From Gammaproteobacteria bacterium (GTDB taxonomy: Bacteria > Pseudomonadota > Gammaproteobacteria > Chromatiales > Chromatiaceae), in contig JAGRGQ010000001.1 in assembly GCA_020445405.1 (NCBI GenBank), forward strand, positions 1 to 64,000: DNA of 64,000 nt. Direction: 5' to 3'. The notes under the pieces are model-generated. The model had not been told where the DNA came from. It saw nothing but the letters and a program-made list of their open reading frames with translations, and did not search any database. Shown piece by piece: positions 5,637 to 53,576 of the stretch. Position 1 is the stretch's first letter. Every line of letters begins with the position of its first letter. A program made the translations under genes and the position numbers.

Positions 5637-6443
5637 ATGAGAGACGCCAGGGGCGTGGAGATTTGCAGCCTTTCCGATAAGGGGCAGGTGCGCCGGGAGA
5701 ATCAGGACAACACCCTTGTCGATCCGGCAAATGCGCTGTTCATCCTGGCCGACGGCGCCGGCGGCGGACTTGGCGGAGGAACGGCCAGTCGTCTGACCGT
5801 CGACACCATGGGCGGCCGGGTGCAATCGCTACTGCGCGGCAGCAGGCGTTACCGGATATGGGACAGGCAGCCCAGGGCGTCCCGGTTGACTGAAATCCTT
5901 TCCACTGCGGCGCAGGCTGCCAATAGCGTGGTTGTCTCCGCAGCGTCGACCTCTTCCGAATTGACCGGAATGGCGTCGACGGTGGTCGCCGGAGTGATCG
6001 ACGCGCAGCGGTGTATCGCGGTCACCGCCGGCGATTCGCGTATTTACCTCTTCCGCGGGGGCCGGCTGGCGCAGGTCTCCGAGGACCACAGCCTTGCCCG
6101 TCAGTTGATCGAGCGGGGCTTCATCTCAGAGGATGACAACAAGGCATCCAAATACCGGAATGTACTGACACGGGCTGTCGGCATGCAGGAGAACATAGAA
6201 CTCTCCACGCACGATATAGCGCTGGAGAGCGGCGACATCGTGCTGGCCTGTTCCGATGGCTTGACGAATATGGTACCCGATGCAGCCATTGCTGCGGTTC
6301 TGTCAAAGGCGATCCCGCTGGAAGAGCAGGCAAGCGAGTTGATCCAGTCGGCCAATGAGGCTGGCGGCCTTGACAACATTTCGGTCATACTGATTAGATA
6401 CCGCAGGCTTCCCACAATCCTTTCCCGGTTGCTGGGACAGTGA
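5637..6443 (+). CDS. PP2C-family Ser/Thr protein phosphatase (PppA/Stp-like)
   Basis: About 268 residues, soluble. All PP2C motifs are visible in order: GQVRRENQDN, LADGAGGGLGG, STVVAGV, AVTAGDSRIYLFR, LACSDGLTNMV and GGLDNISVILI. The metal-binding aspartates (NQD, ADG, SDG, LDN) are intact, so it should be an active Mn/Mg-dependent phosphatase. The frame is open further upstream, but the conserved N-terminus begins shortly after the ATG at 5637. It is followed 29 bp later by an FHA protein and then by a Ser/Thr kinase, the usual writer-eraser-reader arrangement. By position and family it corresponds to PppA, which reverses PpkA phosphorylation of Fha in type VI secretion regulation. Its target here is probably the FHA protein or the kinase. 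Confidence 0.93.
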   Translation: MRDARGVEICSLSDKGQVRRENQDNTLVDPANALFILADGAGGGLGGGTASRLTVDTMGGRVQSLLRGSRRYRIWDRQPRASRLTEILSTAAQAANSVVVSAASTSSELTGMASTVVAGVIDAQRCIAVTAGDSRIYLFRGGRLAQVSEDHSLARQLIERGFISEDDNKASKYRNVLTRAVGMQENIELSTHDIALESGDIVLACSDGLTNMVPDAAIAAVLSKAIPLEEQASELIQSANEAGGLDNISVILIRYRRLPTILSRLLGQ

Positions 6444-6472
6444 GTTGGGATTCCGCTGAGGAAACATAACCC

Positions 6473-6997
6473 ATGCCGAAACTACACCTGATGGAAAACA
6501 AGAAAACGGTCTCTACATTCGATCTTGCCGAAGGCGAGATAGTGGTGGGACGGGACGCGGCGTGTGAGATCCATCTGGATGACGACGCAATAAGCCGCCG
6601 GCACGTACGCATTTTCACGTTGCTGGGCGATGCTTTTCTGGAGGACCTGGGCAGCAGCAACGGAACCTATGTGAACGGGCATCTCACCAGGAAAAGCGTT
6701 CTGAACGATGGTGACGTGATCCAGATAGGTCAGCGGGAACTGCTGTTCTCCCAACCCCCGGAGTCGGAACCCTCCCGGCAGAACGCCGACAACATGGACG
6801 CGACCATGATCATTCCTCCGGGCAACTTCGGCCCCGAAACCGTCGCGGCGAAGGAGAAGAACCGCACCCGGGAGGGTATTTCACCGGTGGCCTATTCGGC
6901 GCACGAAAAGGCGCAACCGGAAAGCAGGAGCAGGGCGCCGGCCGGGAAGCAGCGTTCCGGTGGTTTCTGGGGCTGGCTGCGGCGTCTTTTCCAATGA
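6473..6997 (+). CDS. FHA-domain phosphothreonine-binding protein
   Basis: 174 residues. An N-terminal FHA domain (about residues 4-92) carries the signature residues: GRDAACEIHLDDDAISRRH with the phosphopeptide-contacting Arg and Ser, then EDLGSSNGTYVNG. The C-terminal half is low-complexity, ending in a basic, tryptophan-containing tail (GFWGWLRRLFQ) that could touch the membrane. Thr111, in MDATMIIPPG just after the FHA domain, looks like a kinase phosphosite and FHA ligand, giving the possibility of self-binding as in GarA-type switches. A GAGGA ribosome-binding site precedes the ATG. It lies between a PP2C phosphatase and a Ser/Thr kinase and is the likely shared substrate. Confidence 0.93.
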   Translation: MPKLHLMENKKTVSTFDLAEGEIVVGRDAACEIHLDDDAISRRHVRIFTLLGDAFLEDLGSSNGTYVNGHLTRKSVLNDGDVIQIGQRELLFSQPPESEPSRQNADNMDATMIIPPGNFGPETVAAKEKNRTREGISPVAYSAHEKAQPESRSRAPAGKQRSGGFWGWLRRLFQ

Positions 6998-7167
6998 CAG
7001 CGGCAGGGAAAACGAACAGCGGAGCCAGCGCTGCCGCTTATGCACCTGAAACAGGGTCGGGTGCCGGGTCAGGCAAGTTCTCCCTGACCGGTAAGCTCTC
7101 TCTGGCGGGGTAAATAAAGCCCGGCGGCAGGGGTCGGCCGACCGGTAATATTTGAAACAAGAGAAAT

Positions 7168-7803
7168 ATGGTGGAATCGCATACAGACATCACGCAGGAT
7201 TTCGTTCAGCGGAAGTACCTGGTCGACAACGGTCCGGCGGACATACTGCTGCATCTGGATCGACTCTCCCACTTTCTCAACAAACACGACCTGATCAAGC
7301 ACTTCAGTAAACCCGGGCAGATGGAGAAGGCATACTTCAGGGACGCGGATCCGCTAAACTCGGATTCCGCCTCCTGCGTTGTCGAGTATCCCAAGGCAAA
7401 GGTGGTGCGCAGAGCATCCATCCAGGTGATGCTCGATTCGCTGCTGCGCGAAGAGCATCTCTGTCCAATCCGGCTGGAACGAAGCGGCGCTGAATATGAA
7501 CTGCTTCTGGCACCGTTGTCGGAGGAGAATCTTGCGGTATTGGACCAGTTCTATGTCGCGTTTCGAGTCGACATCGCCAAGGCTTACCGTGTCCGGCGCA
7601 ATATATTGAACCTGCCTTTCAAGTCGGGCGATCTTCCCAGCTGTCTGGCCAAGATGTTTGTGGAGATGAATCTGGTATACGAGACCGGCATCGGCCGTGT
7701 GGATGGGATGAATGTGAGCGACGAGTCGTTCAATCCGGATGCGACCATCATCGGGCGCAGCGCTGAAGAGTTGATGCGGTTGTTCAAAAAAGAGAAAGAA
7801 TGA
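7168..7803 (+). CDS. Unknown 211-aa cytoplasmic protein of the phosphorylation operon
   Basis: I do not recognise a family. It is 211 residues with no signal peptide or membrane helix and mixed alpha/beta composition. It begins MVESHTDITQDFVQRKYLVD and ends in a charged tail (AEELMRLFKKEKE). Near the C-terminus, Thr193 sits in NPDATIIGRS, closely resembling the DAT motif of the neighbouring FHA protein (MDATMII) and the DTT motif in the kinase linker. Its position between the FHA gene and the kinase gene, on the same strand, argues for a role as kinase substrate or adaptor. The 170-bp gaps on both sides may carry regulatory sequence. The ribosome-binding site (AAGAGAAAT) is weak. Confidence 0.8.
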   Translation: MVESHTDITQDFVQRKYLVDNGPADILLHLDRLSHFLNKHDLIKHFSKPGQMEKAYFRDADPLNSDSASCVVEYPKAKVVRRASIQVMLDSLLREEHLCPIRLERSGAEYELLLAPLSEENLAVLDQFYVAFRVDIAKAYRVRRNILNLPFKSGDLPSCLAKMFVEMNLVYETGIGRVDGMNVSDESFNPDATIIGRSAEELMRLFKKEKE

Positions 7804-7890
7804 CAGAGAGCGCTTCGAGGAGCCGGTATGTACCGTTTGCGGCGTTTTGATTACATCTAGCATCACCCGGCGAAATCCGCACGATTTTCC

Positions 7891-7912
7891 GGGCGGGGGA
7901 TTGGTCCCGCCC
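7891..7912. other. GC-rich hairpin in the leader of the kinase gene
   Basis: A perfect 7-bp inverted repeat, GGGCGGG (7891-7897) and CCCGCCC (7906-7912), with an 8-nt loop. It lies about 57 bp before the kinase ATG. No T-tract follows, so it is not a standard intrinsic terminator. It may tune expression or mRNA stability between the 211-aa protein and the kinase. Confidence 0.4.
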
Positions 7913-7968
7913 GATTCAACCACCCGGCAATTCCGGATTCTTCCCGCAAACCCCACGCTGAACAAAAG

Positions 7969-10032
7969 ATGGAACCGGAAAAAACCAAAATAGGCAAATA
8001 CGAAATCCTGTCGGTGCTGGGGAAGGGGGCGATGGGAACGATATACAAAGGTATCGATCCCGTTATTCAGCGCCACGTCGCGATCAAGACAATCAGTTCA
8101 CATATTCCAAGCGCGGAGCAATCTGCGCTCAAAGAGCGTTTCATCCGGGAAGCGCAGGCGGCAGGGCGGCTGCAGCACATCAACATCGTAAGTATCTTCG
8201 AGTACGGAGAAGATGCGGACCAGGCCTTTATCGCGATGGAGTTTGTGGAGGGTGTAACCCTGACAGACAAGTTGCACGCCCGCGTTCAGTTCACGATCCC
8301 GGAAATCTGCAGCATCATGATAAAGGTGCTGAATGCGCTGGAATATGCCCACTCGATGGGCGTTGTGCACCGGGACATTAAGCCGGGTAACATCATATTG
8401 ACCGAAAGCGGTGAGGTAAAAGTCACCGATTTCGGTATCGCCCGGCTTGAGTCATCGACAATGACCCAGATCGGGACTGTTCTGGGAACACCGGGGTATA
8501 TGTCCCCCGAGCAGCTGGTGGGGGAGAATGTCGATAATCGTTCGGATATTTTTTCCGCCGGGGCGATGCTGTATGAGTTGCTGACAGGTGAAAAAGCCTA
8601 CAGCGGTACGACTTTTACATCGGTGATGTACAAAATACTGAATACCGATCCCATACCGCCGGCGAGTATCTGTCCTACAGTACCTGAAGCGTTCGATGAG
8701 ATCATCCGCAAAGCCCTGGAGAAAAAGCCAGAAAACCGCTATCAGAGCGCCGCTGCATTCGCGGCGGCGATCGCAGCTGTTGCGGAGGCCCGGTCCGGTG
8801 TCCGCGACGTAGACCATGCGGCAGCGACGTTGCATGACGTCCCCCGCGCCGCACCCACCCCCGCTGTTGCAAAGCCACAGCCTGCGCCTGAAGGAGACCG
8901 GACCCGATACCTTCAGGAGAGCGCAGATACAACCCGTATCATGCATCCGAAAACCAGCCGCGGTGGCAGGAGAGCTCTCTATACGGCTGCAGCGGTACTG
9001 ATTTCAGGTATCGCCGTCGTGGCGGGTTGGCCGCTGCTGCAGGAGATCATCGGACGGCGGCAGAGCCCGGTGGCGGTGCCGAAGCCCGCCCCGGGTGTGG
9101 TGGAGTCCGGCACGGCACAGCGCGATCCGGATGCGCGGGTTGCAGATACCACAACCGGATCCGTCCAGCGCGACACCGGCCAATCCACTGCCGGCCGTTA
9201 TACACCGGGGCAACAACTGAAAGAGTGCGATGCCTGTCCGGCGCTGGTGGTCATTCCTCCCGGCAGCTATATGCAGGGCTCACCTGAATCTGAGGCCGAT
9301 CGTCAGCCCAACGAGGGACCGCAGCACCTTACCCGCATCGACTATACACTGGCGGTGGGGAGATACGAGGTCACGCGCGGGGAGTACCGGCAGTTTGCAG
9401 CGGAGAGCGGTCATTCGTCCCAAGGCTGCAGTATCTACCAGGACAAATGGGTTGAAAGTGAGGATAGCGGCTGGCAGAACCCCGGCTATGAACAGACCGA
9501 CACACATCCGGCCACCTGCATCTCCTGGAATGATGCCACGGCTTATGTCAAGTGGCTCTCGGACAAGACACATCATCACTACCGACTATTGTCCTCGTCT
9601 GAGTGGGAATACATCGCCAAGGCGGGTTCCGCGGCAATCGGCCAATGGGGAGGCGATGCCGGTCAGGCATGCCAGTTCGCGAATATCGCGGATACATCCG
9701 CGGAGAAGCGATATAACGGCTGGACGGTGCATGGCTGCAATGACGGGTTTGTCTATACCGCGCCGGCCGGATCGTTCAAACCAAATGGCTTTTCAGTCTA
9801 CGATATGTTGGGCAATGTCTTCGAGTGGGTGGAGGATTGCTGGAAAGATGATTACCAAGGGGTGCCTGCCGATGGCGCGCCGTGGACCGCGGCCGGCTGC
9901 AGCGAGCGCGGTTTACGCGGCGGTTCCTGGTTCAGCATGCCAGCCTATGTACGGCCGGCATTTCGCAATCGCTTCACGCCTGAGCATCGCAGCAGCACCT
10001 TCGGTTTTCGGGTCGTCCGGCTACTGGATTGA
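7969..10032 (+). CDS. Membrane Ser/Thr protein kinase with C-terminal periplasmic FGE/SUMF1-like domain
   Basis: 687 residues. The kinase domain (about 10-270) is complete: glycine loop LGKGAMGTIYKG, VAIK Lys40, catalytic HRDIKPGN (Asp136), DFG 154-156, activation segment through GTPGYMSPEQ. A proline/alanine-rich linker contains Thr321/Thr322 in SADTTRIMHP. One transmembrane helix follows (about 335-353), and an FGE-sulfatase-like domain fills residues 420-687 (VVIPPGSYMQGSPESEADR through MLGNVFEWVEDCW and GLRGGSWFS). The two cysteines needed by genuine formylglycine-generating enzyme are replaced in the terminal segment (RGGSWFSMPAYVRPAFRNRF), so this domain is probably a non-catalytic sensor or protein-binding module. 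In Pseudomonas PpkA the corresponding periplasmic part is a VWA region and the FGE protein (TagR) is separate; here they are fused. Confidence 0.95.
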   Translation: MEPEKTKIGKYEILSVLGKGAMGTIYKGIDPVIQRHVAIKTISSHIPSAEQSALKERFIREAQAAGRLQHINIVSIFEYGEDADQAFIAMEFVEGVTLTDKLHARVQFTIPEICSIMIKVLNALEYAHSMGVVHRDIKPGNIILTESGEVKVTDFGIARLESSTMTQIGTVLGTPGYMSPEQLVGENVDNRSDIFSAGAMLYELLTGEKAYSGTTFTSVMYKILNTDPIPPASICPTVPEAFDEIIRKALEKKPENRYQSAAAFAAAIAAVAEARSGVRDVDHAAATLHDVPRAAPTPAVAKPQPAPEGDRTRYLQESADTTRIMHPKTSRGGRRALYTAAAVLISGIAVVAGWPLLQEIIGRRQSPVAVPKPAPGVVESGTAQRDPDARVADTTTGSVQRDTGQSTAGRYTPGQQLKECDACPALVVIPPGSYMQGSPESEADRQPNEGPQHLTRIDYTLAVGRYEVTRGEYRQFAAESGHSSQGCSIYQDKWVESEDSGWQNPGYEQTDTHPATCISWNDATAYVKWLSDKTHHHYRLLSSSEWEYIAKAGSAAIGQWGGDAGQACQFANIADTSAEKRYNGWTVHGCNDGFVYTAPAGSFKPNGFSVYDMLGNVFEWVEDCWKDDYQGVPADGAPWTAAGCSERGLRGGSWFSMPAYVRPAFRNRFTPEHRSSTFGFRVVRLLD

Positions 10033-10130: not shown

Positions 10131-10898
10131 ATGAGGGGTTTGAAATTGGCGGTTCTGCTGCCGTTGTCGGCGCTGCTCGCCGTTGGGTGTTCGGTCAAAG
10201 CTCCCACCATTGCGCATACCCATATAGGCCATGCCATAACCGGCTGGCGCACCACACCCGGTCAGCAGGGACTTCTGGTGGTCGCTGAAAACAAGGCGGT
10301 GGAGGCGCTGGAGCATGCACAGCGCGCCGCGCTGTATGGCAGTGACACCGATGCCGTCAAGGCCGAGGTTTCCAATGCGCTTATAGCCATAAATCCTCAG
10401 GGAACCGGCGCCAAATCGATTCAGGCCGAACCGCCCTTTGGACTGCAGCAGGCACTGGTAGGCGCCGTGGATCACATCACCTTCGCAGCGAATTCGGAGG
10501 ACGCCACGCAGAATGTCCGGGCCTTTGCGGAAGAGTTTGCCGCTAACAGCTCAGCGGTGGTTGAGCGCTGCAACCTGATTGAATTACTGGGTAAGGATAT
10601 TCAGGCCTCCTCCTCGGCGGAAGAGGTGGAAATACTGACTCGGGAGTTGTCGGCGCTGGCGGAGGCCAACCTGAACGGAATCGATGCTGACGGGGACGGC
10701 ATTACCGGCAACACACCCGAAGAACAGGGGGTTCGGCAGCTGCGTGCGGCACTCGATGCAGTGCTGGAACGGGAAGAGCCGCCCTATACCACGGTTAGCC
10801 AGTGGTATCTGTTCAATCTGATCAGATTGCCCACGGGCGAGTGGCGGTTCGAGGCTCCGCCCGCCGATACCGGCGGTGGCGGTGGCGGCGGATACTGA
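10131..10898 (+). CDS. Predicted lipoprotein with EF-hand-like calcium loop
   Basis: 255 residues. A lipoprotein signal peptide ends in LLAVGC with Cys20 as the lipidation site, and +2 Ser favours outer-membrane sorting in E. coli-type rules. The mature part is largely helical. Residues around NGIDADGDGITGNTPEEQG fit a DxDxDG calcium-binding loop. The C-terminus ends in a glycine run. A strong AGGGAGGAGAGG ribosome-binding site precedes the ATG, and the stop is directly followed by the next gene. No family is recognised. Its place just downstream of the membrane kinase suggests an outer-membrane partner of the kinase periplasmic domain, in the way TagQ is linked to TagR; this is an inference. 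Confidence 0.82.
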   Translation: MRGLKLAVLLPLSALLAVGCSVKAPTIAHTHIGHAITGWRTTPGQQGLLVVAENKAVEALEHAQRAALYGSDTDAVKAEVSNALIAINPQGTGAKSIQAEPPFGLQQALVGAVDHITFAANSEDATQNVRAFAEEFAANSSAVVERCNLIELLGKDIQASSSAEEVEILTRELSALAEANLNGIDADGDGITGNTPEEQGVRQLRAALDAVLEREEPPYTTVSQWYLFNLIRLPTGEWRFEAPPADTGGGGGGGY

Positions 10899-10907
10899 TT
10901 GACGGGC

Positions 10908-11975
10908 ATGCCGTCCATGCTGGAATCCTGCTTCACATTCAGGCGGATTGGCGCTGTCATACCGCTGCTGATCCTCAGCTTTTTTCATGCCACAGGCGCT
11001 GCTGCCGCAGCCTGCCTCGTTCCCGTGGCGCCAACGGATCTCTCCGCCTGCGAACAGGAATTGCAACAGAATCCGCGCGATATCCGGCTGCGCAGGGCGT
11101 TGACCGAGGCACTGATCGGGCTCGGAAAGCGCCGGGAGGCGATCAAGCTACTGGAAGCGGGACTGAAGCTCCACCCGGAAGATGAACAGATGCAGGAGAT
11201 GCTGAAACTTCAGCGAAGCTTTCTGGAAGAGAAGGCATGGGCGGAGAAGCAGCGCCTCAGTCGTGAAGAGAGTGTAACGGAAAAATCGGATCCCAGGATC
11301 AGGCTCAATGTCATCCGCTGCACGAAACTGAAAGGAGAAGCGGCACTGGAGGCCTGCGATGAGGGGTTGGCCGCACTCCCGGGGGATGTGGATCTCGTTC
11401 TGGGAAAAGCCGAAGCACTGCTGGATATGAATCGGATCGTTGAAGCCATCCTGTTGCTCAGAGAGGCCAGAGCGTCGCATGCTTCGAATACGCAGTTTGC
11501 GGAAATGGTGGGACGGGCGGAGGCGAAACGCAAACTCCTGTCCGGGCAGTGTTTCACGCGGCGCGGGGCAGAGGCGCTGAAAGCGTGCGATATCGCACTG
11601 CTGAAGGGTGCGGCTGACGAACTTCGGATTCAACGGCGGCGCGCCGACCTGCTGTTTGAACAAAACCGCGCCGCAGAAGCGTTGGCAGCGCACAAGGCGG
11701 CCAGAAGACTGAAATCCGCAAAAACCGGCGCCGATGATGGAGAGGTTGAAGAATCGGCGGTGCGGGAGAGGAGCGCGGAGGCTGCAGCGGCACCACCCAA
11801 GGTGGCCGTGGCGGAGCCAACGCCCGCAAAGCCCGCGGAAACGGTGTCCGAAGCCGAATCGCGCATCGATGGCGGGCAGGCGAAACGTGGCGCGAATGCG
11901 GCGGCGCCGTCACCGGTCACCGCACAGGTGACGCGTTACAGCAACGCACCATTGCGACCGGGAATTACCTACTAG
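10908..11975 (+). CDS. Exported TPR-like helical repeat protein
   Basis: About 355 residues. A signal peptide (IPLLILSFFHATGAAAA) precedes TPR-like helix pairs, for example IRLRRALTEALIGLGKRREA and VDLVLGKAEALLDMNRIVEA. Cysteine-containing repeats (ACEQELQQNP, ACDEGLAALP, ACDIALLKGA) each mark the start of a Sel1/TPR-like unit. The last 100 residues are low-complexity, Ala/Pro/Glu-rich. The ATG at 10908 or 10917 is more plausible than the TTG at 10899 that abuts the preceding stop. It is probably a periplasmic scaffold co-expressed with the lipoprotein. The TAG stop codon forms the edge of an inverted-repeat element that also occurs at 60992. Confidence 0.78.
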   Translation: MPSMLESCFTFRRIGAVIPLLILSFFHATGAAAAACLVPVAPTDLSACEQELQQNPRDIRLRRALTEALIGLGKRREAIKLLEAGLKLHPEDEQMQEMLKLQRSFLEEKAWAEKQRLSREESVTEKSDPRIRLNVIRCTKLKGEAALEACDEGLAALPGDVDLVLGKAEALLDMNRIVEAILLLREARASHASNTQFAEMVGRAEAKRKLLSGQCFTRRGAEALKACDIALLKGAADELRIQRRRADLLFEQNRAAEALAAHKAARRLKSAKTGADDGEVEESAVRERSAEAAAAPPKVAVAEPTPAKPAETVSEAESRIDGGQAKRGANAAAPSPVTAQVTRYSNAPLRPGITY

Positions 11976-15275: not shown

Positions 15276-15684
15276 CCTATGCTCTCCGGCCCGCTCGAGA
15301 TTGTGAGGGGTGTCGGGCAACGCACAAATGTGGCCGTTACCTCCCCTTTCTCCTGTAGTCAGGGATTCTTTCCTATACTAAGCCAAGTGGATGAATAATT
15401 CACAAATTCATTTGGACTTCATGAAGGGACGGTATTGCTGCCTGGAGCATCCAGAGGGGCGTATGCGATGGGTATGAACGGATACCGATTAAGCTAAGTC
15501 CGGTCCTGGTTTTCCCGGCGCCGGGCGGGATGCATTTTGATAAACCGGGGAGGGAGGCGCTTCCGGGGTGAATTTCGGGGAAGTTTTGACCTCGGTCAAA
15601 GCGATGGGATTATACCCGGGATAGCAGCGGCCTTCCCCTATACCCTATCAGGGCACAGCCCTCGGGCCTTCTGTCAGGCAAGCG
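15276..15684. other. Divergent intergenic region upstream of the giant-protein operon
   Basis: About 400 bases between the leftward PASTA gene and the rightward giant gene 1. It has AT-richer stretches (around 15380-15425) that could be the promoter of the PASTA gene or an UP-type element, and a clear sigma70-like site near the giant gene, listed separately. No small gene is supported. Confidence 0.5.
15586..15615 (+). promoter_or_regulatory. Candidate promoter and FNR-like palindrome for the giant-protein operon
   Basis: TTGACC (15586-15591) and TTATAC (15610-15615) form a sigma70-like pair with 18 bp spacing; ATTATA gives 17. The -35 lies within the perfect palindrome TTGAC-CTCG-GTCAA (15586-15599). 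This half-site pair resembles CRP/FNR-family boxes (TTGAT-N4-ATCAA) with one symmetrical change. A factor bound there would cover the -35 and probably repress. The start codon of giant gene 1 is 70 bp downstream. Confidence 0.5.
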
Positions 15685-44613: not shown

Positions 44614-47232
44614 ATGAAAACGATCAAACTGACGAATCGCAGCATAGGCGCTCTGCTGGCCATGATACTGTGCGTGGCCAGTCCGCTGCTCCCGGCGCAG
44701 CAGCCCGGGAGCGACCTGGTGGCGGCAGGGGAGCCGGAGAGCCAGGTGGCGCCGGCGGTAAATCCCGAGGCGGACCAGCTGCCGGCAGACGCCGATGGCA
44801 CACGCCAGGACAACAATCCCGAGGCGGATGACGCGGCGCTGCAGAGCACTCAGGGGCCCGGGCCGGCCGGGGAGGTTGAGGCGACGGGTTCGATGACAGA
44901 ATCAATGCAGCCCGGCGGCAGTCTGAATCCGGAAGCCGAAGATGCGGCGCTGCAGAGCACTCAGGGGCCCGGGCCGGCCGGGGAGGTTGAGGCGACGGAT
45001 TCGACGACCGAATCAATGCAATCCGGCAGCAGTCTGAATCCGGATGCCGCTGCCGCGGCGGGCACCGTCGAAGAGGCACCCGAGAGCGAACAGCGGGCCG
45101 GCGAATCGTCGGCAGCCGACACAGCCGCATATCCGACCGAAGAATCCCAGCCCGAGGGGCTGGTGCAGAAAGACGGAGAGGGATCGGCTGCAGAGGAGAA
45201 TGTTGCCGCCGGGCCAGGGATTCCACTGCAACGCAAGCTGACCATGAAGCGGGAGATCTCACTGGTCGTCTCCTGCGATGGCGCGGGAGTCTGCCGCGAG
45301 CGCGAGACCGGGCAGCCGCTGCGGGTGCTGCCGAAATCATTCTCTCACGTATACAGGAGCAAGGACGCGAGCAGCGACAACATCGCGGTGGAGAACGTCG
45401 CAGCCTACAAAGCGTTGTACGTGTTCGCCCGCGATGAGCTGGATCTGAGCAACCCGGCGCAACCCGGCGGCTGGTATCAGGTGGGTTACAGCCTGGACGG
45501 CGAGCCGATCGGCTGGATGCAGGCGCGCGACGTTCTGGAGTGGAAGCAGGCCCTGATCATCTCTTACCGGCACCGCGGGCTGGACGATATGCGGCGCGAT
45601 CCGGTATTGATGTTCCGCAGCCTGGATGCGCTGCGCGAAGTGGTGGAATCGCCGGTGCGCGATGGCATGGCGACGCTGTTGTACCAGAAAATCGAAAAGG
45701 GCGATATACCGCCGTCACTGGCGAGCAAGGAGCCGGAGCGTTACGTCGACATCGATCAGAAGTTCTATCTGCTGCCGATACTGGACTTCGAAGTGACGGA
45801 AATCGACGGCGACGAGGTGCGTTATCTGCAGCTGGCCGCTGCCGTTCCCAGAAAACGGGGCGCCGACGTTCTGCAGGACAGCGCCTATCGCGAGGCCTCG
45901 GAGATCAAACCGGAGATGTCGCAGGAACAGGCCGGGGCGCTGAAGATGGACATCGTGTTCGTGATGGACATGTCCCGCAGTATGCAACCCTATATCGATA
46001 GCACCCGCGATGCGATCAAGGAGCTGGTCAGCAGTATGGCCGGCGATGAAATGAGAGAGCGTGTGCGCTTCGGTCTGGTGGGCTACCGCGACGATACGCG
46101 CAAGATTCCCGCACTTGAGTTCACCAGCAAAAACCTGACTCCGGAACTGGTGGACGTGGAGCGCTTCATCCAGTTGCTGGAGCAGGAGGCAAAAGCCACG
46201 CTGGTCGGCAGCATCGATTATGCGGAGGAGGTTTATGCCGGTATGGATACCGGGCTGGGTTCGGCCTGGCGGGACGACGCAATGCGGTTTCTGTTTCTGA
46301 TCGGTGATGCCAGCGCCCACGAGGAGGATCACGAACAGAGCACCACGGGTAAAAACGCAGCCGTTCTCAATCTGGCCGCACGCCAGGCCGGGGTGCGCAT
46401 TCTGGCGCTGCATCTGCTGGATCCGCGCATGACCTCGGACCATGCGATCGCCAGCCGGCAGTACGCCAGTCTCTCCCGGATCGAGGGCGCGGATCAATCT
46501 GCGTTGGTGGAGATCTCCACCGAGGACCGGGCGGCTTTCACATCGGCGGTCAGAGAGAGTGCGGGCGTGATCTACAAGACCCTCGACAAGGCACGGCAGG
46601 GAACCCTCAAAGCGCCGGACAAAGCGCAGCCCGGTACCGAGGTCACGCCGGTTGCCGCGGTTGATTCCGGCAGACAGGCCGAGAAGACCATGGAGAAGCT
46701 GATGGATTCGGCGCTGATCGAGTATCTGGGGAAGGAGGCGGATCCGCCCAAGGATATCGTCGTCTGGGCGCTGGACCGGGATATCGGCAATCCGATTCTG
46801 AACGCGATGGATGTGCGGGTGCTGTTGAGTAAAAACCAGCTGAGCGATCTGATCAGAAGCATCGAACAGGTAACCAAGGCGCTGGCCCGCGCAGAGTACA
46901 GCCATCAACAGTTCTTCGAGGCATTGCAGAGCGTAGCCGGCCAGACCCTGAAACAGCCGGATGCGATCGAAAAGGCCGACAAACTCGCTCAGACCGGACT
47001 GTTGCCGGGTTTTATCCGCAGTCTGCCCTATCGCAGCGAAGTGCTCTCCCTGTCGGACGAGATGTACGCGGCCATGACCGCGGAGCAGCGCAGCGCGCTG
47101 GAGAGCAACCTGCGGGCAAAGCTGCGCCAGTATCAGGATATCAACGAGCAGGTGGATGGCTGGGTCTCTCTCAACGAGGAGGATCCGGACGGTGCCAAGG
47201 TCTACCCTTTGTACCTGGACTATCTGCCTTGA
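44614..47232 (+). CDS. Periplasmic VWA protein 2, paralogue of VWA protein 1 with repeat-containing N-extension
   Basis: About 872 residues. The ATG follows AGAGGAG. A signal peptide (LLAMILCVASPLLPAQ) leads into an extra 170-residue acidic, disordered stretch containing a 37-residue tandem duplication. The rest matches the preceding gene throughout: SH3-like domain (about 219-330; PKSFSHVYRSKD, GWYQVGYSLDGEPIGWMQA), VWA domain (about 441-650) with canonical MIDAS DMSRS at Asp452, GYRDDTRKIP and LIGDASAHEEDHE, then a tail ending VYPLYLDYLP. The pair clearly arose by duplication. The canonical MIDAS here, against DMTRS in the copy, may mean different partner affinities. It ends the giant-protein operon. 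Confidence 0.88.
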   Translation: MKTIKLTNRSIGALLAMILCVASPLLPAQQPGSDLVAAGEPESQVAPAVNPEADQLPADADGTRQDNNPEADDAALQSTQGPGPAGEVEATGSMTESMQPGGSLNPEAEDAALQSTQGPGPAGEVEATDSTTESMQSGSSLNPDAAAAAGTVEEAPESEQRAGESSAADTAAYPTEESQPEGLVQKDGEGSAAEENVAAGPGIPLQRKLTMKREISLVVSCDGAGVCRERETGQPLRVLPKSFSHVYRSKDASSDNIAVENVAAYKALYVFARDELDLSNPAQPGGWYQVGYSLDGEPIGWMQARDVLEWKQALIISYRHRGLDDMRRDPVLMFRSLDALREVVESPVRDGMATLLYQKIEKGDIPPSLASKEPERYVDIDQKFYLLPILDFEVTEIDGDEVRYLQLAAAVPRKRGADVLQDSAYREASEIKPEMSQEQAGALKMDIVFVMDMSRSMQPYIDSTRDAIKELVSSMAGDEMRERVRFGLVGYRDDTRKIPALEFTSKNLTPELVDVERFIQLLEQEAKATLVGSIDYAEEVYAGMDTGLGSAWRDDAMRFLFLIGDASAHEEDHEQSTTGKNAAVLNLAARQAGVRILALHLLDPRMTSDHAIASRQYASLSRIEGADQSALVEISTEDRAAFTSAVRESAGVIYKTLDKARQGTLKAPDKAQPGTEVTPVAAVDSGRQAEKTMEKLMDSALIEYLGKEADPPKDIVVWALDRDIGNPILNAMDVRVLLSKNQLSDLIRSIEQVTKALARAEYSHQQFFEALQSVAGQTLKQPDAIEKADKLAQTGLLPGFIRSLPYRSEVLSLSDEMYAAMTAEQRSALESNLRAKLRQYQDINEQVDGWVSLNEEDPDGAKVYPLYLDYLP
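44833..45054 (+). repeat. Two in-frame 111-bp tandem repeats inside VWA protein 2
   Basis: Units at 44833-44943 and 44944-45054 encode two near-identical 37-residue segments beginning AALQSTQGPGPAGEVEAT. Several differences between the units fall outside a perfectly conserved core. Together with a preceding partial unit (NPEADQLPADADG) they form a stretchable disordered linker between the signal peptide and the SH3-like domain. Confidence 0.85.
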
Positions 47233-47321: not shown

Positions 47322-47655
47322 GAGGGAGTCGCAAAGGATCTGTCCCTTCTCCCTTCGAGGGAGAAGGTCAGGATGAGGGTGATTAATATCAGAGGCTTAT
47401 CTATAGATACCCTCACCCCAGCCCTCTCCCTCACGGGGAGAGGGGGTTTTACGACACCCTTACCCGAGGGAGAGGAAGTTAATCGCAGGAGGGAGTCGCA
47501 AAGGATCTGTCCCTTCTCCCTTCAAGGGAGAAGGTCAGGATGAGGGTGATTAATATCAGAGGCTTATCTGTAGATACCCTCACCCCGGCCCTCTCCCTTA
47601 CGGGGAGAGGGGGATTTACGACACCCTCCAGGGGTGCGGGGATTACGGTCGCAGA
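47322..47655. repeat. 167-bp tandem repeat with paired hairpins between VWA2 and the ABC operon
   Basis: Two copies (47322-47488 and 47489-about 47655), each starting GAGGGAGTCGCAAAGGATCTG. Each contains two hairpins, CCTTCTCCCTTC/GAGGGAGAAGG and CCCTCTCCC-TCACG-GGGAGAGGG. A degenerate partial copy lies just upstream (from about 47287). The motif CCCTCACCCCAGCCCTCTCCC-type repeat is common between genes in many proteobacteria. No gene is supported in 47233-47831. The hairpins may protect the mRNA end of the giant operon or weaken transcription into the ABC operon. Confidence 0.85.
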
Positions 47656-47831: not shown

Positions 47832-48626
47832 ATGGCGCAAACAGATGCAAACTTCGCTACCGCGGGTAGCGCAACTCCAGACGATCCCTTGATAGAGATC
47901 CGTAATCTGGTAAAGGTCAGGCGGCAGGGGGGCGTTGAGTTCGAACTGGCGGTCCCCGAGTTTATGCTGCCGGGCGGCAGCTTCGTTGCGCTGGTCGGCG
48001 AGAGCGGCTGTGGCAAGAGCACCCTGCTCGATCTGCTTGCGCTGGTGCTGCAGCCCACCAGCTGCGAGCGCTTCCTGTTCCGGAACAGCGGCGGTGAAAC
48101 AGGGTCGTCGGCAGACGATGTGCTGGCGCTGTGGCGCTCAGGCGACGAGAAGGCGCTGGCCGGTTTGCGCCGAAGCCGACTCGGTTATGTACTGCAGAGC
48201 GGGGGACTGCTGCCGTTTTTGACGGCGCGTCAGAATCTGCGGCTGCCATTGAATATCAACGCCGAACGGAATGGGTACGCCCGGGTGGAGCAGCTGGCGG
48301 AAAAAATGGGTATTGCCGGACTTTTGAGCAAGAAGCCGCGGTTTCTTTCCGGCGGGCAGCGGCAGCGCGTGGCGATTCTGCGCGCGATGGTGCACCGGCC
48401 TGCATTGATACTGGCGGATGAACCCACCGCGGCGGTGGACCGGGCGCGGGCGCGCGTCATCGTCGACGATTTCAGGCGGCTCGCGGTCGCGGGCGGGAGC
48501 AGCGTGATCATGGTGACGCACGATCCACAGCTGGTGGAGCGGGTGGCCGATGCAACCTGGACCTTCAATGTCCAGCAAGCCAGCGACAGATTGACCCGTT
48601 CAGTCTGCGTAGCGGGCAGCCGATGA
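47832..48626 (+). CDS. ABC transporter ATP-binding protein (LolD/TagT-like)
   Basis: 264 residues. All ABC motifs are present: Walker A GESGCGKST, Q-loop VLQSGGLLPFL, signature LSGGQRQRVAILRAM, Walker B LILADEPTAAVD, H-loop MVTHD. Length and sequence fit the LolD/MacB/FtsE group that works with FtsX-type permeases. The stop overlaps the start of the permease gene, so they form one transporter. In the Pseudomonas H1-T6SS, TagT is such an ATPase, encoded with TagS, TagR and TagQ and acting upstream of kinase PpkA. The identical gene set here supports the same assignment. An alternative role is lipoprotein release or mechanotransmission unrelated to phosphorylation. Confidence 0.93.
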   Translation: MAQTDANFATAGSATPDDPLIEIRNLVKVRRQGGVEFELAVPEFMLPGGSFVALVGESGCGKSTLLDLLALVLQPTSCERFLFRNSGGETGSSADDVLALWRSGDEKALAGLRRSRLGYVLQSGGLLPFLTARQNLRLPLNINAERNGYARVEQLAEKMGIAGLLSKKPRFLSGGQRQRVAILRAMVHRPALILADEPTAAVDRARARVIVDDFRRLAVAGGSSVIMVTHDPQLVERVADATWTFNVQQASDRLTRSVCVAGSR

Positions 48627-50461
48627 GCGGAAAAGGGGGCAAGCCGCCGGCTATTGTTTTCCGCCTCGCGCTGGCGGATCTGCGCCACGAATGGATATTG
48701 AGCGCCTGTCTGATGCTGGCCATCGCTGCGGTGATCGCCCCGCTGCTGCTGCTGATGGGTCTGAAGCATGGCACCATCACCACACTGCGACACGAACTGA
48801 TCCAGGATCCGCAGTTTCGCGAAATCAGGCCGGCCAAGACACGCGAGTATGCATCAGACTGGCTGGAACGGCAGGCCGCTTCGGAGCAGGTTGAGTTTAT
48901 TATCCCCACGATACTCGCCGCCTCCTCCATCATCAGCGTGGTGAAGCCCGGCTCGCGGCGCAGCCTGATCTACGATCTGGTGCCGACCCGCAACGGCGAT
49001 CCGTTGCTGCTGGAGAACGGTGGCGTCGTTCCGGAGGAGGGAGAGTGCGTGCTCACCGATGCGGGTGCGAAAGAGCTGGGGGTCGGTACCGGTGACAACA
49101 TCTCGGTGCGCGCAACGCGTATCCGCGGCGGCCGCAGGGAAACGGCACCGGCCGAGCTGCGGGTGGCGGCGGTGCTCAATCCCCGCGCCAGTGCGCTGAA
49201 CCGGCTTTACGCACCGTTGGATTTCGTACTCGATGTCGAGTCGTACAAAGAGGGGCTGGCCGTTCCCGCCCGCAGCTGGCCGGGCGGCACGCTGCGCCCG
49301 TATCCCAGTTACGACGGTATGCTGGTGCTGCTGCCGGAAGCGCTGCGACCGGTCCAGGAGACGGGTCTGATCATCAATACCGGATTGACCGGGATCGAAC
49401 GTGCGGACGCGGACAGGTTTCTGCAAAGGACGGGTCTGGCGCTGCCGCCGGGGCTCACGTTGTATGATCTGACCACGTCCCAGTCGGCGGTTCAACTCTC
49501 CAGCTACCACGCGATCAGGGACAAGCTGCGCGGCAAAGGCGCACTGGTGATCCCCTATGTACGTGACCTGAGGCTGCAATTGGCAACCGGCGATAGCCTG
49601 CCGCTAACCGGTCTCTCCCTCGGTGCCGACCAGCTGCAAAGCCTGGGCATGGAATCGCTGCCCTGGGGTGCGCTGCAGGCGTCGCCGTCGGCCGAGAGTC
49701 TGCGCCAGATAGTGGTCAGCGGCCGGAACCAGCATGAACGGCTTCCGGTCGAGTACCCCGATGGTGCCGCCGGAGCGCTCGCTTTTCCACTGCGGGTGAG
49801 CGGGCATACCGACGCGAAGCTCTCCATCATACCGGCGGAACTGGCGGGTATACTGCGCACCGCCAGACAGCGAAAAGTGACCTTCAGTGCGGATCAGGGG
49901 GACTTTCTGCTGCAACGCGCGGGCTTCCGGGGATTTCGCATGTATACGCGCAGCATCGACGACGTGCCGCCGATGGTGGATGCGCTCAAAGCGGACGGTA
50001 TCGATGTGATCGCACAGATCGAGGCAATCGAGCGGGTGCGCGTGCTCGATCGCGGATTGAGCCGGATTTTCTGGCTGGTGGCCTTGGTGGGTATCAGCGG
50101 CGGCATCGCAGCATTGATCGCCAGCCTGTATGCAGCGGTCGAACGGAAACAGCACGAACTGAGCGTGCTGCGGCTGATCGGTCTTTCGCGCAACCAGGTG
50201 TTTATGTTTCCGGTCTATCAGGGGGCTGCACTGGCCGTATTGAGCCTGTTGCTGGCAATGGCTGCCTACTTCAGTCTGGCCGCGGTCATCAACTTTGTCT
50301 TTTCGGCCGACCTGGACATGGGTGAAAAGATCTGCAATCTGCCCTGGCACTACCTGTCGGCGTCCGTTATCGCGACCGCCACGGTCGCGGTGCTGAGCTC
50401 GCTGCTCGCTGCCTGGCACACCACTTCCATCGACCCCGGCGAGGCGCTGCGCTATGAGTGA
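48623..50461 (+). CDS. FtsX/LolC-like ABC permease (TagS-like)
   Basis: 612 residues. One N-terminal transmembrane helix (about 25-50; ILSACLMLAIAAVIAPLLLL) is followed by a large periplasmic domain (about 50-470) and three C-terminal helices (about 480-600) with the conserved cytoplasmic loop VERKQHELSVLRLIGLSRNQ that contacts the ATPase. This four-helix type VII layout is that of MacB, LolC/E and TagS. It overlaps both neighbours by 4 and 8 bp, so ATPase, permease and FGE-like protein are translated together. Type VII transporters transmit force to periplasmic partners rather than moving solutes across the membrane. Here the partner is likely the adjacent FGE-like protein and lipoprotein. 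Confidence 0.9.
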   Translation: MSGKGGKPPAIVFRLALADLRHEWILSACLMLAIAAVIAPLLLLMGLKHGTITTLRHELIQDPQFREIRPAKTREYASDWLERQAASEQVEFIIPTILAASSIISVVKPGSRRSLIYDLVPTRNGDPLLLENGGVVPEEGECVLTDAGAKELGVGTGDNISVRATRIRGGRRETAPAELRVAAVLNPRASALNRLYAPLDFVLDVESYKEGLAVPARSWPGGTLRPYPSYDGMLVLLPEALRPVQETGLIINTGLTGIERADADRFLQRTGLALPPGLTLYDLTTSQSAVQLSSYHAIRDKLRGKGALVIPYVRDLRLQLATGDSLPLTGLSLGADQLQSLGMESLPWGALQASPSAESLRQIVVSGRNQHERLPVEYPDGAAGALAFPLRVSGHTDAKLSIIPAELAGILRTARQRKVTFSADQGDFLLQRAGFRGFRMYTRSIDDVPPMVDALKADGIDVIAQIEAIERVRVLDRGLSRIFWLVALVGISGGIAALIASLYAAVERKQHELSVLRLIGLSRNQVFMFPVYQGAALAVLSLLLAMAAYFSLAAVINFVFSADLDMGEKICNLPWHYLSASVIATATVAVLSSLLAAWHTTSIDPGEALRYE

Positions 50462-52112
50462 TTTGCGTAAGACACTCACGCTCCTTCTCCTGTTCTGGGG
50501 TGCGGCGGCTGCAGCTATGCCGCCCGCGGCGACGCCAAACAATCCCAAACCCGCAGAGGGGGATCTGGTGCTGCCGATGCCAAACGGCGCGGAGATGGTA
50601 TTCCGCATGGTACAGGTTCCAGGCGAGAACTTCTGGGGTGACAGCGAACGGCTGATTCAGGTGGGTGACGGCGAAGGCGGCATATTCGAGGGACTCCAGC
50701 GGCTGCAGGTCAGCGGCTCCTTCCCGCAGCGGTCGGGAAACGGGAGAGCCTATTATCTGGGCAAGTACGAGGTTACCAAGTCGCAATTCGTTGCGGTGAT
50801 GGGACTGGAACGGCTGCTGGAGGCTACCGGCGACAGCAACGATAAACGCCGCCTGCCAACCCTCTCCGGAAAAAAACTGCAGCAGGCGCTGGGCTACCCG
50901 CTGGTGTTCGTTCCCTGGCGGGAGATGCGCGAATTCTTCCATCGCTACAATCTGTGGTTGTTCGATCCCTCCCATCCGGAACGTCTGGATAATTTACCCA
51001 GAGCCGGGGATTCACCCGGATTTCTGAGGCTGCCGACGGAACTGGAGTGGGAGTACGCCGCGCGCGGCGGACTCAGTGCGTTGAATGACGAGAGTTTTAC
51101 CCAGTCGCAGCCTTTTCCCGCCAACAAGATAACCGGTTATGCCTGGCATCTGGAGAATGCCAAACACAAAGTGCGCCCGATCGGTTTGCGCAACCCCAAT
51201 CAACTGGGTTTGTACGATATGCTGGGTAATGCCCAGGAGATATGCGAAGGCCCGTTCAGACCCGAGTGGTGGCAGGGACAGCCGGGCGGGCTGGTCGCCC
51301 GCGGTGGCAGCGTCGGAACCCCGGCGCGGGAGCTGCGATCCTCGCGCCGGGAAGAGGTGGAAATTTACCGCTGGGTGGCGGACGACAACCGGATGCAGGA
51401 GTGGCGCTCATACAATACCGGTATGCGCCTGGCGATAGGGGCCAACGTGGTGCGCAGTACCGAGAACCGGCAGCGACTGGAACAGGAGTATCAGGGCTAT
51501 CGTCAGAGCGTGCGCGCGACGATGCCGGTAGGCAGGACGCTGGACAATCAGGTGGCGCAGGCGTCAGACCAGCTTACCACCGCGCACGCGCGCATCGATC
51601 AGATAGTCGGACAGAATGTACATCTGAAATCCGAACTGTCGCGTATTCAACAGGATATAGACAAGGCTCAGGAGCGCCTCGATCATGCCATGCGCGAATC
51701 GGCGCGCAGCACCGCGCGGGATCTGCTGCGCCAGGCGACCAGCCTGGGCAGAGATGTATTCAAGCTGGAGAGTTTTCAGCAGCGGCTTGCGGACGTGGAG
51801 AAACTCTCTTCCCTCTCCACCCGCTATCAGGATCTGGCAGCGAAGATCAAATCTGAGATGGAAAAAAGGCGGGAATATATGAACGAGATATTCACACGCT
51901 ATCTGCAGGAGCTGCAGAAACTGGGCGAGTTCAGCACGGGTCACGCTGAGCAGGCATTGAAATCGCTGGCTGAAAGCCGTCTCACCCGGCGTTCCGAAAA
52001 GGCTTTGGAGGTGATCCGACGGCAGTTGCAGGCCTACCGTGAACTGCGACGCAGTGATGCGGATGTCTGGCGTGAAGAGTTCCACCAGACGTTCAGGAAT
52101 CTGGCGGACTGA
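50454..52112 (+). CDS. Exported FGE/SUMF1-like protein with coiled-coil tail (TagR-like)
   Basis: 552 residues. A signal peptide (TLLLLFWGAAAAA) is followed by an FGE-sulfatase fold (about 35-330): GKYEVTKSQFVAVMG, RLPTELEWEYAARGG, GLYDMLGNAQEICEGP, VARGGSVGTPARELR and NTGMRLAIG. The terminal strands lack the paired active-site cysteines of true formylglycine-generating enzyme, so it is probably non-enzymatic, as TagR is thought to be. An extra coiled coil (about 345-550) with long Glu/Arg/Gln heptads is not part of TagR as I know it and may bridge to the two coiled-coil lipoprotein-like products downstream. It overlaps the permease gene by 8 bp. Confidence 0.9.
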   Translation: MSDLRKTLTLLLLFWGAAAAAMPPAATPNNPKPAEGDLVLPMPNGAEMVFRMVQVPGENFWGDSERLIQVGDGEGGIFEGLQRLQVSGSFPQRSGNGRAYYLGKYEVTKSQFVAVMGLERLLEATGDSNDKRRLPTLSGKKLQQALGYPLVFVPWREMREFFHRYNLWLFDPSHPERLDNLPRAGDSPGFLRLPTELEWEYAARGGLSALNDESFTQSQPFPANKITGYAWHLENAKHKVRPIGLRNPNQLGLYDMLGNAQEICEGPFRPEWWQGQPGGLVARGGSVGTPARELRSSRREEVEIYRWVADDNRMQEWRSYNTGMRLAIGANVVRSTENRQRLEQEYQGYRQSVRATMPVGRTLDNQVAQASDQLTTAHARIDQIVGQNVHLKSELSRIQQDIDKAQERLDHAMRESARSTARDLLRQATSLGRDVFKLESFQQRLADVEKLSSLSTRYQDLAAKIKSEMEKRREYMNEIFTRYLQELQKLGEFSTGHAEQALKSLAESRLTRRSEKALEVIRRQLQAYRELRRSDADVWREEFHQTFRNLAD

Positions 52113-52165
52113 GGGTATTGACAGGGGCGCGGTATGAAACCAGTTCTCGACACGGGAGCATCGAA

Positions 52166-52882
52166 ATGACATTGAAATTGGATAAATCTGTACAGGTGGT
52201 TTTGGTGGCCGCAGTATTGACCACCGGTTGCCAGAGCAATCCCATCCAAACCGACGACCCGGCCGGCGCGCAACCAGCGTCCGGTCAGGCCGATTCATCG
52301 GATGCGACGCGCACCCGCACCGAGGGTGCGTTCATGGGTGCACTGGTCGGCGGCCTGCTGGGCTACGCAGTGGGCGATAAAAATCGCGGTAAGGGAGCAT
52401 TGATAGGCGCCGCAGTGGGTGCAGGCGTCGGCTATATCGTCGGCAATGAGATTGCCAAACGCAAACAGCAATATGCCACGGAGGAGGATTTTCTCGATTC
52501 GGAGATCGCCACGGCGAGGGAGTTCAACCAGACCGCGACCGCCTACAATACGCAACTACGGGATGAGATAGTCGATCTGGATAACAGCTCCCGACTGGTT
52601 GAGTCGCGCTACCGTGCCGGTCTGGCGTCGAAGTCGGAGGTGGAGGCGGAACGGCAGACGCTGAAAACCCAGATAGCGGATTCGGAGAAGCTCTACCAGG
52701 ATCTGAAAAAGGAGTACGACATCAAGGTCGCGGTCGCGAACGAGCGGCGCCAGCAGAAAGGCGGCGGAGACGAATATGTCCGCCAGCTCGATCAGGAGAT
52801 CGCTTCGCTCAAGCAGAACATGGATGAGTTGCAGGCGCAGTCCGTGCAACTGGCGCAGATCGACGAGCGTCTGACGATTTGA
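52166..52882 (+). CDS. Glycine-zipper lipoprotein with coiled-coil tail (TagQ position)
   Basis: About 238 residues. The ATG at 52166 follows GGGAGCATCGA; a longer upstream frame is ignored. Lipobox VLTTGC gives Cys22 with +2 Gln, suited to the outer membrane. A glycine-zipper hairpin follows (GAFMGALVGGLLGYAVGD, then GALIGAAVGAGVGYIVGN), which normally inserts in or lines the outer membrane. The rest is a charged coiled coil ending in LAQIDERLTI. Position after the FGE-like gene matches that of TagQ, an outer-membrane lipoprotein required for TagR localisation. I have not confirmed sequence homology to TagQ. Confidence 0.85.
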   Translation: MTLKLDKSVQVVLVAAVLTTGCQSNPIQTDDPAGAQPASGQADSSDATRTRTEGAFMGALVGGLLGYAVGDKNRGKGALIGAAVGAGVGYIVGNEIAKRKQQYATEEDFLDSEIATAREFNQTATAYNTQLRDEIVDLDNSSRLVESRYRAGLASKSEVEAERQTLKTQIADSEKLYQDLKKEYDIKVAVANERRQQKGGGDEYVRQLDQEIASLKQNMDELQAQSVQLAQIDERLTI

Positions 52883-52965
52883 CGCGGCTGTAACGCGTAC
52901 TGCGTTGTCTCCGCAGCGCAGGACCCACGCTTTGGAGCAGATCGCAAATCCCCCGGGGATTGGGG

Positions 52966-53003
52966 TCCGAAATGCACCCGTGCTCCGTTGCGCCGCCTGC
53001 CCG
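52966..53003. repeat. Degenerate dispersed intergenic repeat, copy 1
   Basis: Starts TCCGAAATGC and ends GCCGCCTGCCCG. By eye about 30 of 38 positions match 61038-61075, and most differences are transitions. Both copies lie in short gaps downstream of a gene. They may be remnants of the same family as the CTAGGGCCTGT element, whose left end lies just before the second copy. Confidence 0.45.
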
Positions 53004-53054
53004 GAATGAAAAAATGTTTTCAGGCGGACGCCGATTGTTGAATGAGGTTTGAAA

Positions 53055-53576
53055 ATGAGAGAGTGCTTTATCGTGCGGCCGCTTTGCGCCGTCTTTGTTT
53101 CCGGTTTATTGAGCGTCTCCTGCGCGACCACCGACGACCCCCGCCAGGGCGGACTGATAAGCGGGATGCACAGCATTGGCACAGGCGCCTACGACAAGCG
53201 CATCGAGGAGCGGGAAGCGCGTCTGCAGCGGCTCAGGGAGATGCAGCAGGAGCTGAAATCGGAGCAGCAACAGCTGGAGGCGGACAGGAGTGAGCGACAG
53301 GCTCGCCTCGATGAGCTCGAAGGGAGACTGAAACGGCTGGATGCGGAGTCCCGGCAGTTGCTGACGGAGTTGCAAACCAATCGCGCGCACCTGGCCGAAA
53401 ACCGCAGCAGGCAGGCCAGACTCGAACAGGATCTCACCGCGCTGCGCAGCGCTATCGCCGATCTCGACCGGAAGCGCGATTCCGATACTTCGGTTGCCGC
53501 ACTGGAGAGCGAGCGCGACCGTCTGGAGGAGGAGTATCGCCTGCTGCTCGATCTCTATCTGGAACTTGGTAAATAG
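53055..53576 (+). CDS. Small exported coiled-coil protein, possible lipoprotein
   Basis: 173 residues. The ATG at 53055 has GAGG seven bases upstream. The N-terminal signal ends LLSVSCATTDDP. Cys23 could be lipidated, although Ser at -3 is unusual for a lipobox. From about residue 50 to the end it is a continuous coiled coil (KRIEEREARLQRLREMQQEL, then ELEGRLKRLDAESRQLL), ending in LLLDLYLELGK. It follows the glycine-zipper lipoprotein by 172 bp. The family is not recognised. A periplasmic rod pairing with the coiled coils of the two preceding proteins is plausible. Confidence 0.8.
   Translation: MRECFIVRPLCAVFVSGLLSVSCATTDDPRQGGLISGMHSIGTGAYDKRIEEREARLQRLREMQQELKSEQQQLEADRSERQARLDELEGRLKRLDAESRQLLTELQTNRAHLAENRSRQARLEQDLTALRSAIADLDRKRDSDTSVAALESERDRLEEEYRLLLDLYLELGK

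Follow-up and report, generated by a model that had tools for sequence, protein, structure and literature searches.

The window analysed here is a 64,000-nt stretch (contig JAGRGQ010000001.1, positions 1 to 64,000 of the forward strand) of the 98% complete, 4.18 Mb genome of a purple-sulfur-bacterium relative. A set of its genes is, on balance, judged to encode a trans-envelope threonine phosphorylation sensor of the PpkA/TagQRST type, which is not part of a type VI secretion system (T6SS). Open reading frame (ORF) listing, translations and Pfam/NCBIfam scans confirmed, nearly as described in the first-pass annotation, a PP2C phosphatase, an FHA protein, a membrane Ser/Thr kinase, two SH3-VWA proteins (VWA1 and VWA2), a LolD-like ATPase (TagT), an FtsX-like permease (TagS), an FGE-like protein (TagR) and lipoproteins (among them TagQ and lipoCC), all encoded on the plus strand within one block of about 48 kb (Table 1). 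Two giant exported proteins (GIANT1 and GIANT2) and a Gly-rich protein are encoded between the kinase and the Tag genes. What is new is a sensor family that is broad and mostly T6SS-free; the window carries a fully equipped split-kinase variant of it.

The relationship to PpkA and the Tag proteins was tested against Pseudomonas loci retrieved by a scan with the TagS alignment. The window kinase matched residues 59–304 of a T6SS-linked Pseudomonas PpkA (L126, 1062 aa) with 36% identity (E = 4e-46) and VWA2 matched residues 460–1062 of the same protein with 29% identity (E = 2e-71). Both VWA proteins aligned across the whole PpkA ectodomain, i.e., the C-terminal 600 residues of L126 (29–30%, E about 1e-70). 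Their N-termini resemble signal peptides and they carry DxTxS/DxSxS motifs, so that each probably represents this ectodomain in a soluble, periplasmic form. In L126, PpkA is followed by TagT, TagS and TagR in the same order as in the window, with TagQ next in L128 and L130, and the distance from tagS to TssK in these loci is about 10 kb. The window TagT-TagS-TagR-TagQ genes follow the VWA2 gene in the Pseudomonas H1-T6SS order, the TagQ assignment being weak by NCBIfam. The kinase and the VWA proteins are encoded by separate genes more than 30 kb apart, with no PpkA-type fusion. The homology that the first-pass annotation had proposed is therefore real, and the proposed envelope-signalling architecture was borne out at the sequence level. 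A PDB sequence search returned only FGE-fold matches for TagR, only LolC/FtsX for TagS and no match for VWA2. The Pfam TssR_VWA match on VWA2 (1e-6) was set aside as a generic VWA match, because the match to the PpkA ectodomain was far stronger.

In the window, no gene for TssB/C, Hcp, VgrG, ClpV or IcmF had been visible. In the whole window genome, TssC (PF05943) and TssK (PF05936) gave no matches, nor did SrfB (PF07520). Hcp, VgrG, ClpV and TssM were not among the annotated window genes, no one-by-one genome-wide search for them having been made.

The cassette formed by VWA, TagT, TagS, TagR and TagQ was widespread in other genomes; because ORFs there were called by a longest-ORF greedy procedure, the numbers of genes given are minima. 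A clear TagS relative (E ≤ 1e-12) was detected in 27 of 92 relatives, and TagS was present in 119 of the 210 genomes of the whole family. TssC was not found in 17 of these 27 relatives, and in the other 10 it lay either on a different contig or no closer than about 290 kb; its frequency (10/27 versus 11/65 in the other genomes) indicated a mild positive association and no linkage. The window TagS belongs to a long-form lineage with about 200 residues added after the N-terminal periplasmic part and ahead of the last transmembrane helices, and its AlphaFold model (mean pLDDT 85) has a predicted LolCDE/MacB-class fold. Long-form TagS was also present in Parabeggiatoa, Thiomargarita, Ectothiorhodospira, Sedimenticola, Halomonas cerina, Azospirillum, Desulfopila, Desulfobulbus, Verrucomicrobia and others. 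The neighbours in 58 long-form loci included TagR (48), TagT (44), VWA (44), TagQ (37), an S41/PDZ protease (30) and lipoCC (27), and the window, with long TagS, TagT, TagR, TagQ, VWA and lipoCC all present, is a member of this group. The S41/PDZ protease gene repeatedly adjoined TagQ-lipoCC (L073 14748–15854, L076 14708–15787 and L101 9313–10494).

The arrangement VWA-TagT-TagS(-TagR-TagQ) was common across the family, Beggiatoa, Ectothiorhodospira, Desulfobulbales and Verrucomicrobia, mostly without a T6SS, and never adjoined a T6SS outside the sampled Pseudomonas-type loci. TssK was adjacent in none of the long-form loci and absent altogether from 16 of their 23 genomes; in a second set it was absent from 11 of 17 genomes, including the window genome and the near-complete G158 and G159, in which intact long-form cassettes are present. 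In the same-genus genome G002, the genes were arranged as srfB-srfC-VWA-TagT-TagS. TagQRST has been described as restricted to Pseudomonas (Ostrowski et al. 2018, PMC6082577), and tagQRST/ppkA genes have been reported beside srfABC in Deltaproteobacteria mostly without a T6SS (Campbell et al. 2013, PMC3608642). The spread of the sensor without a T6SS makes it look like a general envelope-sensing device with the Pseudomonas version as one branch; judged from these sequences, the use with a T6SS is younger or narrower than the TagTSRQ-VWA family as a whole.

With LolD and another ABC ATPase as the root, the TagT tree united the T6SS-linked, Srf-linked and short stand-alone forms as a single clade (support 97), with the window and the long forms outside; the T6SS form was a single branch (support 99) nested in that clade. 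TagS trees built with the insert columns in or out agreed with this topology. Because the deep backbone was not resolved and sequences had been sampled for their similarity to the window, the claim is limited to the following: on these trees, the window lineage does not descend from the Pseudomonas T6SS branch. The proposal that a T6SS kit had been recruited to giant proteins was thus not supported, the T6SS form being nested, the window outside and most cassette relatives without a T6SS. The trees also led to the rejection of the window set as a relic, in which a once present Pseudomonas-like T6SS had lost its structural genes and retained its regulators. Some relatives do carry a T6SS elsewhere in the genome, but the position of window TagS and TagT, the intact long-form cassettes in TssK-free genomes and the unfused kinase and VWA genes, against a fused PpkA in all T6SS-linked loci with a full-length VWA gene called, make such a history very improbable. 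Outside T6SS-linked Pseudomonas-type loci, no kinase-VWA fusion was found.

The kinase half of the system was traced in two other genomes. In G104, the genes for PP2C, FHA, the protein orf7168, kinase/FGE, lipoprotein and TPR protein (45–75% identical to those of the window) ran head-on into lipoCC-TagQ-TagR-TagS-TagT-VWA (TagR 77%), which indicates that the kinase unit and the Tag half belong together in at least two genera. In G047, the kinase unit was found alone on a 15.6 kb contig. The PP2C orthologues in G104 and G047 showed 59–66% identity. The orf7168 gene occurred in 4 of the 210 family genomes and was adjoined by a kinase gene in three of them. A PDATI motif was kept in all four orf7168 homologues and DATxI in all three FHA proteins (window, G104 and G047), and the kinase juxtamembrane segments of the same three genomes carried a looser form, ADTTRIM in the window. 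Two Pseudomonas PpkA proteins also have DATVI at the juxtamembrane segment, and the background frequency of DATx[IVM] was 0.029 per 1000 aa. From this conservation we infer that the DATxI motifs are phospho-sites read by the FHA domain and that orf7168 is a candidate kinase substrate or FHA partner; the motifs suggest that the kinase may phosphorylate FHA upon an envelope signal. There is a precedent in the binding of Fha to phospho-Thr of TssL after PpkA action (PMC3953482). The FHA protein ends with GFWGWLRRLF, a possible membrane-binding helix. An AlphaFold model of orf7168 built from four sequences was unusable (mean pLDDT 41).

Read from the sequences, the layout comprises outer-membrane-type lipoproteins (TagQ and lipoCC), periplasmic TagR, inner-membrane TagTS of the LolCDE/MacB class, periplasmic VWA proteins that correspond to the ectodomain of PpkA and, encoded apart from these, a membrane kinase whose ectodomain is of the FGE type; PP2C and FHA accompany the kinase. 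Damage to the outer membrane elicits a response of the TagQRST/PpkA pathway in P. aeruginosa (PMC11881912), with TagQ and TagR as essential upstream sensors (PMC6657622), and the same sensing layout is expected in the window by homology. Accordingly arranged, TagQ and lipoCC would reside at the outer membrane, an envelope disturbance would be sensed at the TagQ/TagR end and TagR would bridge via its coiled coil. TagTS would act as a mechanotransmission ABC protein, in which ATP hydrolysis drives a rearrangement of TagR and of the periplasmic relay VWA1/VWA2, and this rearrangement would switch the kinase via its FGE ectodomain as the receiver. The kinase may then phosphorylate the DATxI threonines (FHA T111, orf7168 T193 and its own juxtamembrane segment), with FHA and orf7168 serving as cytoplasmic readers, FHA collecting the phosphorylated proteins in a complex at the membrane that forms the output, and PP2C resetting the system. 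The output is not a T6SS; the likeliest clients would be the giant surface proteins (their assembly, anchoring or release), since their genes run together with the two VWA genes.

This run comprises GIANT1, GIANT2, the Gly-rich protein, VWA1 and VWA2, with gaps of -1, 24, 33 and 31 nt, and is separated from TagT-S-R-Q by a 599-nt gap containing two 139-nt repeats. GIANT1, GIANT2 and the Gly-rich protein were found in the same order in G135 (on a single contig) and G134, within a cluster of very large genes. By gene content, the window is a composite of three modules: the kinase unit, the giant unit and VWA-TagTSRQ. In the G134/G135 cluster (G135:C1 about 1.02–1.11 Mb, L195–L197 and L203–L206; G134:C57, L198–L200 and L208) the genes encode about 2,050–4,612 aa each. 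Several of these very large proteins end in a common tail of the kind SGGAESLPSNEASATPQ..RRR, which may be a sorting signal not recognised so far, and FGE-domain genes lie near the cluster.

Several observations weigh against the proposed relay and its assigned clients. The giant unit exists without Tag genes, no Tag or VWA gene being found within about 40 kb of it in G134 or G135, and the kinase-plus-Tag set of G104 exists without giants at its locus, so that a single run of genes is what marks the giants as clients. A kinase gene lay within the fetched stretch in just 4 of 63 long-form records, which indicates that the cassette in many cases functions with no kinase linked to it and that the phospho-relay may be an add-on. 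The window also lacks the S41/PDZ protease typical of the long-form lineage after lipoCC, which was likewise not detected in G104, G096, G196 and G160. None of the cassette loci then fetched encoded a homologue of either giant, of the Gly-rich protein or of the PASTA-like protein (Table 1), and the giants were rejected as conserved cassette partners. An enrichment of large ORFs was rejected as well: ORFs of at least 1000 aa occurred near long-form TagS in 19 of 59 records and near short-form TagS in 15 of 37 (there mostly TssM, PpkA or SrfB), and since the two kinds of loci are alike in this count, size alone proves nothing.

The three modules could be independent and share one variable region by chance, with the sensor signalling elsewhere and the giants being ordinary adhesin-like surface proteins. 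Each module was indeed found alone (the kinase unit in G047, the giants in G134/G135 and the cassette in most other genomes), and the mid-region of GIANT1 was matched in the window genome alone, GIANT2 in six other family genomes. The GC content of the block exceeded that of its flanks, with 0.59–0.635 across window positions 5500–53600 against 0.53–0.576 in the right-hand flank, and the block was not found in the same-genus genomes G001 and G002; it may be a variable or acquired region. However, the giants, the Gly-rich protein and both VWA proteins are encoded in one run with gaps of no more than 33 nt, the kinase unit lies next to the Tag unit in two genomes and large secreted proteins adjoin the cassette in Sedimenticola and several other lineages. 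In Sedimenticola, an exported 2105-aa CarboxypepD_reg/Big_7/CARDB protein is encoded directly upstream of VWA, its overall homology to the giants not being detectable. A chance neighbourhood is considered rather unlikely, and control of the giants by the sensor is plausible, with a suggestive gene arrangement.

The Tag cassette might also be mainly a transport or processing machine, in which TagTS moves or extracts envelope proteins as LolCDE does, the FGE-fold TagR, the lipoproteins and the S41 protease handle large secreted proteins and kinase signalling is secondary. The resemblance of the TagS model to LolCDE and MacB, the occurrence of TagTS-VWA mostly without a linked kinase and the recurrence of the S41 protease and large exported proteins would fit this. 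Mechanotransmission ABC proteins, however, share the resemblance to LolCDE/MacB and yet transport nothing across the membrane. Moreover, the same proteins function in sensing, upstream of PpkA, in P. aeruginosa (PMC6657622, PMC11881912), and a transport machine appears doubtful.

With the trans-envelope sensor retained as the preferred reading, a wider one can be offered tentatively: TagTSRQ-VWA may be a general outer-membrane-integrity sensor of several phyla with exchangeable outputs (a T6SS in Pseudomonas, srfABC elsewhere and, for the long-form lineage, the S41 protease together with giant secreted proteins). The kinase would be a secondary addition, joined with VWA into one chain in the T6SS branch and set alongside as a separate unit here, and the Pseudomonas tit-for-tat response would be one late use.

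The coordinates of the features are given in Table 1, in which the VWA2 start was reassigned to the ATG at 44614. The gene of the PASTA-like protein, which was absent from the first-pass annotation, breaks the plus-strand run between the kinase unit and the giants. The lipoCC gene is followed by phaC on the minus strand. An HtrA-like trypsin/PDZ protein with no obvious signal peptide is encoded at 3828–5225, just upstream of the PP2C gene, and a 183-aa protein made of repeated EQLSERHAAALR units at 58690–59241 on the minus strand.

Table 1. Features of the window, with repetitive extragenic palindromic (REP) and miniature inverted-repeat transposable element (MITE)-like copies included.
Feature	Position	Strand	Remarks
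PP2C-type phosphatase (PppA/Stp1-like)	5637-6443	+	Pfam PP2C_2 1.8e-12; NCBIfam Stp1 6e-65
FHA-domain protein, 174 aa	6473-6997	+	FHA match 1.7e-19; DATMI motif (D109, T111)
orf7168, without known family	7168-7803	+	sub-threshold Pfam match only; C-terminal PDATI (T193)
Ser/Thr kinase	7969-10032	+	Pkinase 5e-55, one transmembrane segment, periplasmic FGE-like ectodomain (FGE-sulfatase 2e-55)
Predicted lipoprotein (LAVGC)	10131-10898	+	GGGGGGY C-terminus; conserved member of kinase unit
Exported TPR protein	10899-11975	+	conserved member of kinase unit
Exported coiled-coil protein, 1070 aa, PASTA-like stretch	12108-15320	-	signal-peptide-like start
GIANT1, 4633 aa	15685-29586	+	Sec-type N-terminus; CarboxypepD_reg, Big_5, Big_9/cadherin-like domains
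GIANT2, 3798 aa	29586-40982	+	Sec-type N-terminus; 8 CarboxypepD_reg and 4 Big_5 stretches
Gly-rich exported protein, 454 aa	41007-42371	+	43-45% identical homologue adjoining GIANT2 in G134/G135
VWA1, periplasmic SH3-like/VWA protein	42405-44582	+	PpkA-ectodomain homologue; DMTRS metal-site motif
VWA2	44614-47232	+	50% identity to VWA1; DMSRS motif; Pro/Glu-rich N-terminal region
Two REP/MITE-like palindromic copies	47322-47627		139 nt each, direct, 96%, CCCTCACCCC...CCCTCTCCC; no further copies in window
TagT-like ABC ATPase (LolD/MacB class)	47832-48626	+	
TagS-like FtsX permease, long form	48623-50461	+	about 200 extra periplasmic residues (about 229-433)
TagR-like periplasmic FGE-fold protein	50454-52112	+	C-terminal coiled coil
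TagQ-like glycine-zipper outer-membrane-type lipoprotein	52118-52882	+	TTGC lipobox; NCBIfam VI_TagQ 3.4e-5, below cut-off
lipoCC, coiled-coil lipoprotein	53049-53576	+	SVSC lipobox; conserved cassette member

TagQRST has been treated in T6SS papers as a Pseudomonas-specific T6SS accessory; here it was found in many genera of several phyla, mostly T6SS-free. What TagQRST senses becomes testable in systems without a T6SS, cassettes with and without a kinase provide a natural experiment on how VWA/TagTS works, and the conserved unnamed protein orf7168, with its probable phospho-site, is a candidate output.

The closest known counterpart is the P. aeruginosa H1-T6SS pathway (PppA-PpkA-TagT-TagS-TagR-TagQ, Fha1), with which the window shares homologous components, the VWA-TagT-S-R-Q order, a kinase with PP2C and FHA, and a layout from outer-membrane lipoprotein through the periplasm to an inner-membrane kinase. 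The window differs in having no T6SS, kinase and VWA on separate genes, a kinase with an FGE ectodomain, two VWA copies, the longer TagS, a small FHA protein and a separate phylogenetic lineage. The srfABC-linked tagQRST/ppkA genes of host-associated Deltaproteobacteria (PMC3608642), found here also in G002, Enterobacter, Bordetella trematum and Oceanibaculum, share the threonine phosphorylation pathway-type VWA-TagT-S-R in T6SS-free genomes and are a precedent for the module outside a T6SS; that type, however, has short-form TagS and srfABC as partners instead of giant secreted proteins, whereas the window genome lacks SrfB. The long-form cassettes of Sedimenticola, Ectothiorhodospira, Desulfopila, Halomonas cerina and Verrucomicrobia share VWA-TagT-TagS(long)-TagR-TagQ-lipoCC, often with adjoining large secreted proteins, but they usually have an S41/PDZ protease and no linked kinase, the opposite of the window, in which a kinase unit is present and the S41 gene absent. 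The kinase-phosphatase pair resembles Stk1/Stp1 of PASTA/Stk-Stp systems by profile, below every NCBIfam equivalog cut-off, with an FGE instead of a PASTA ectodomain and with VWA, FGE and lipoprotein partners. Finally, TagTS is predicted from the model to fall into the LolCDE/MacB fold class, as do the mechanotransmission ABC systems of that class.

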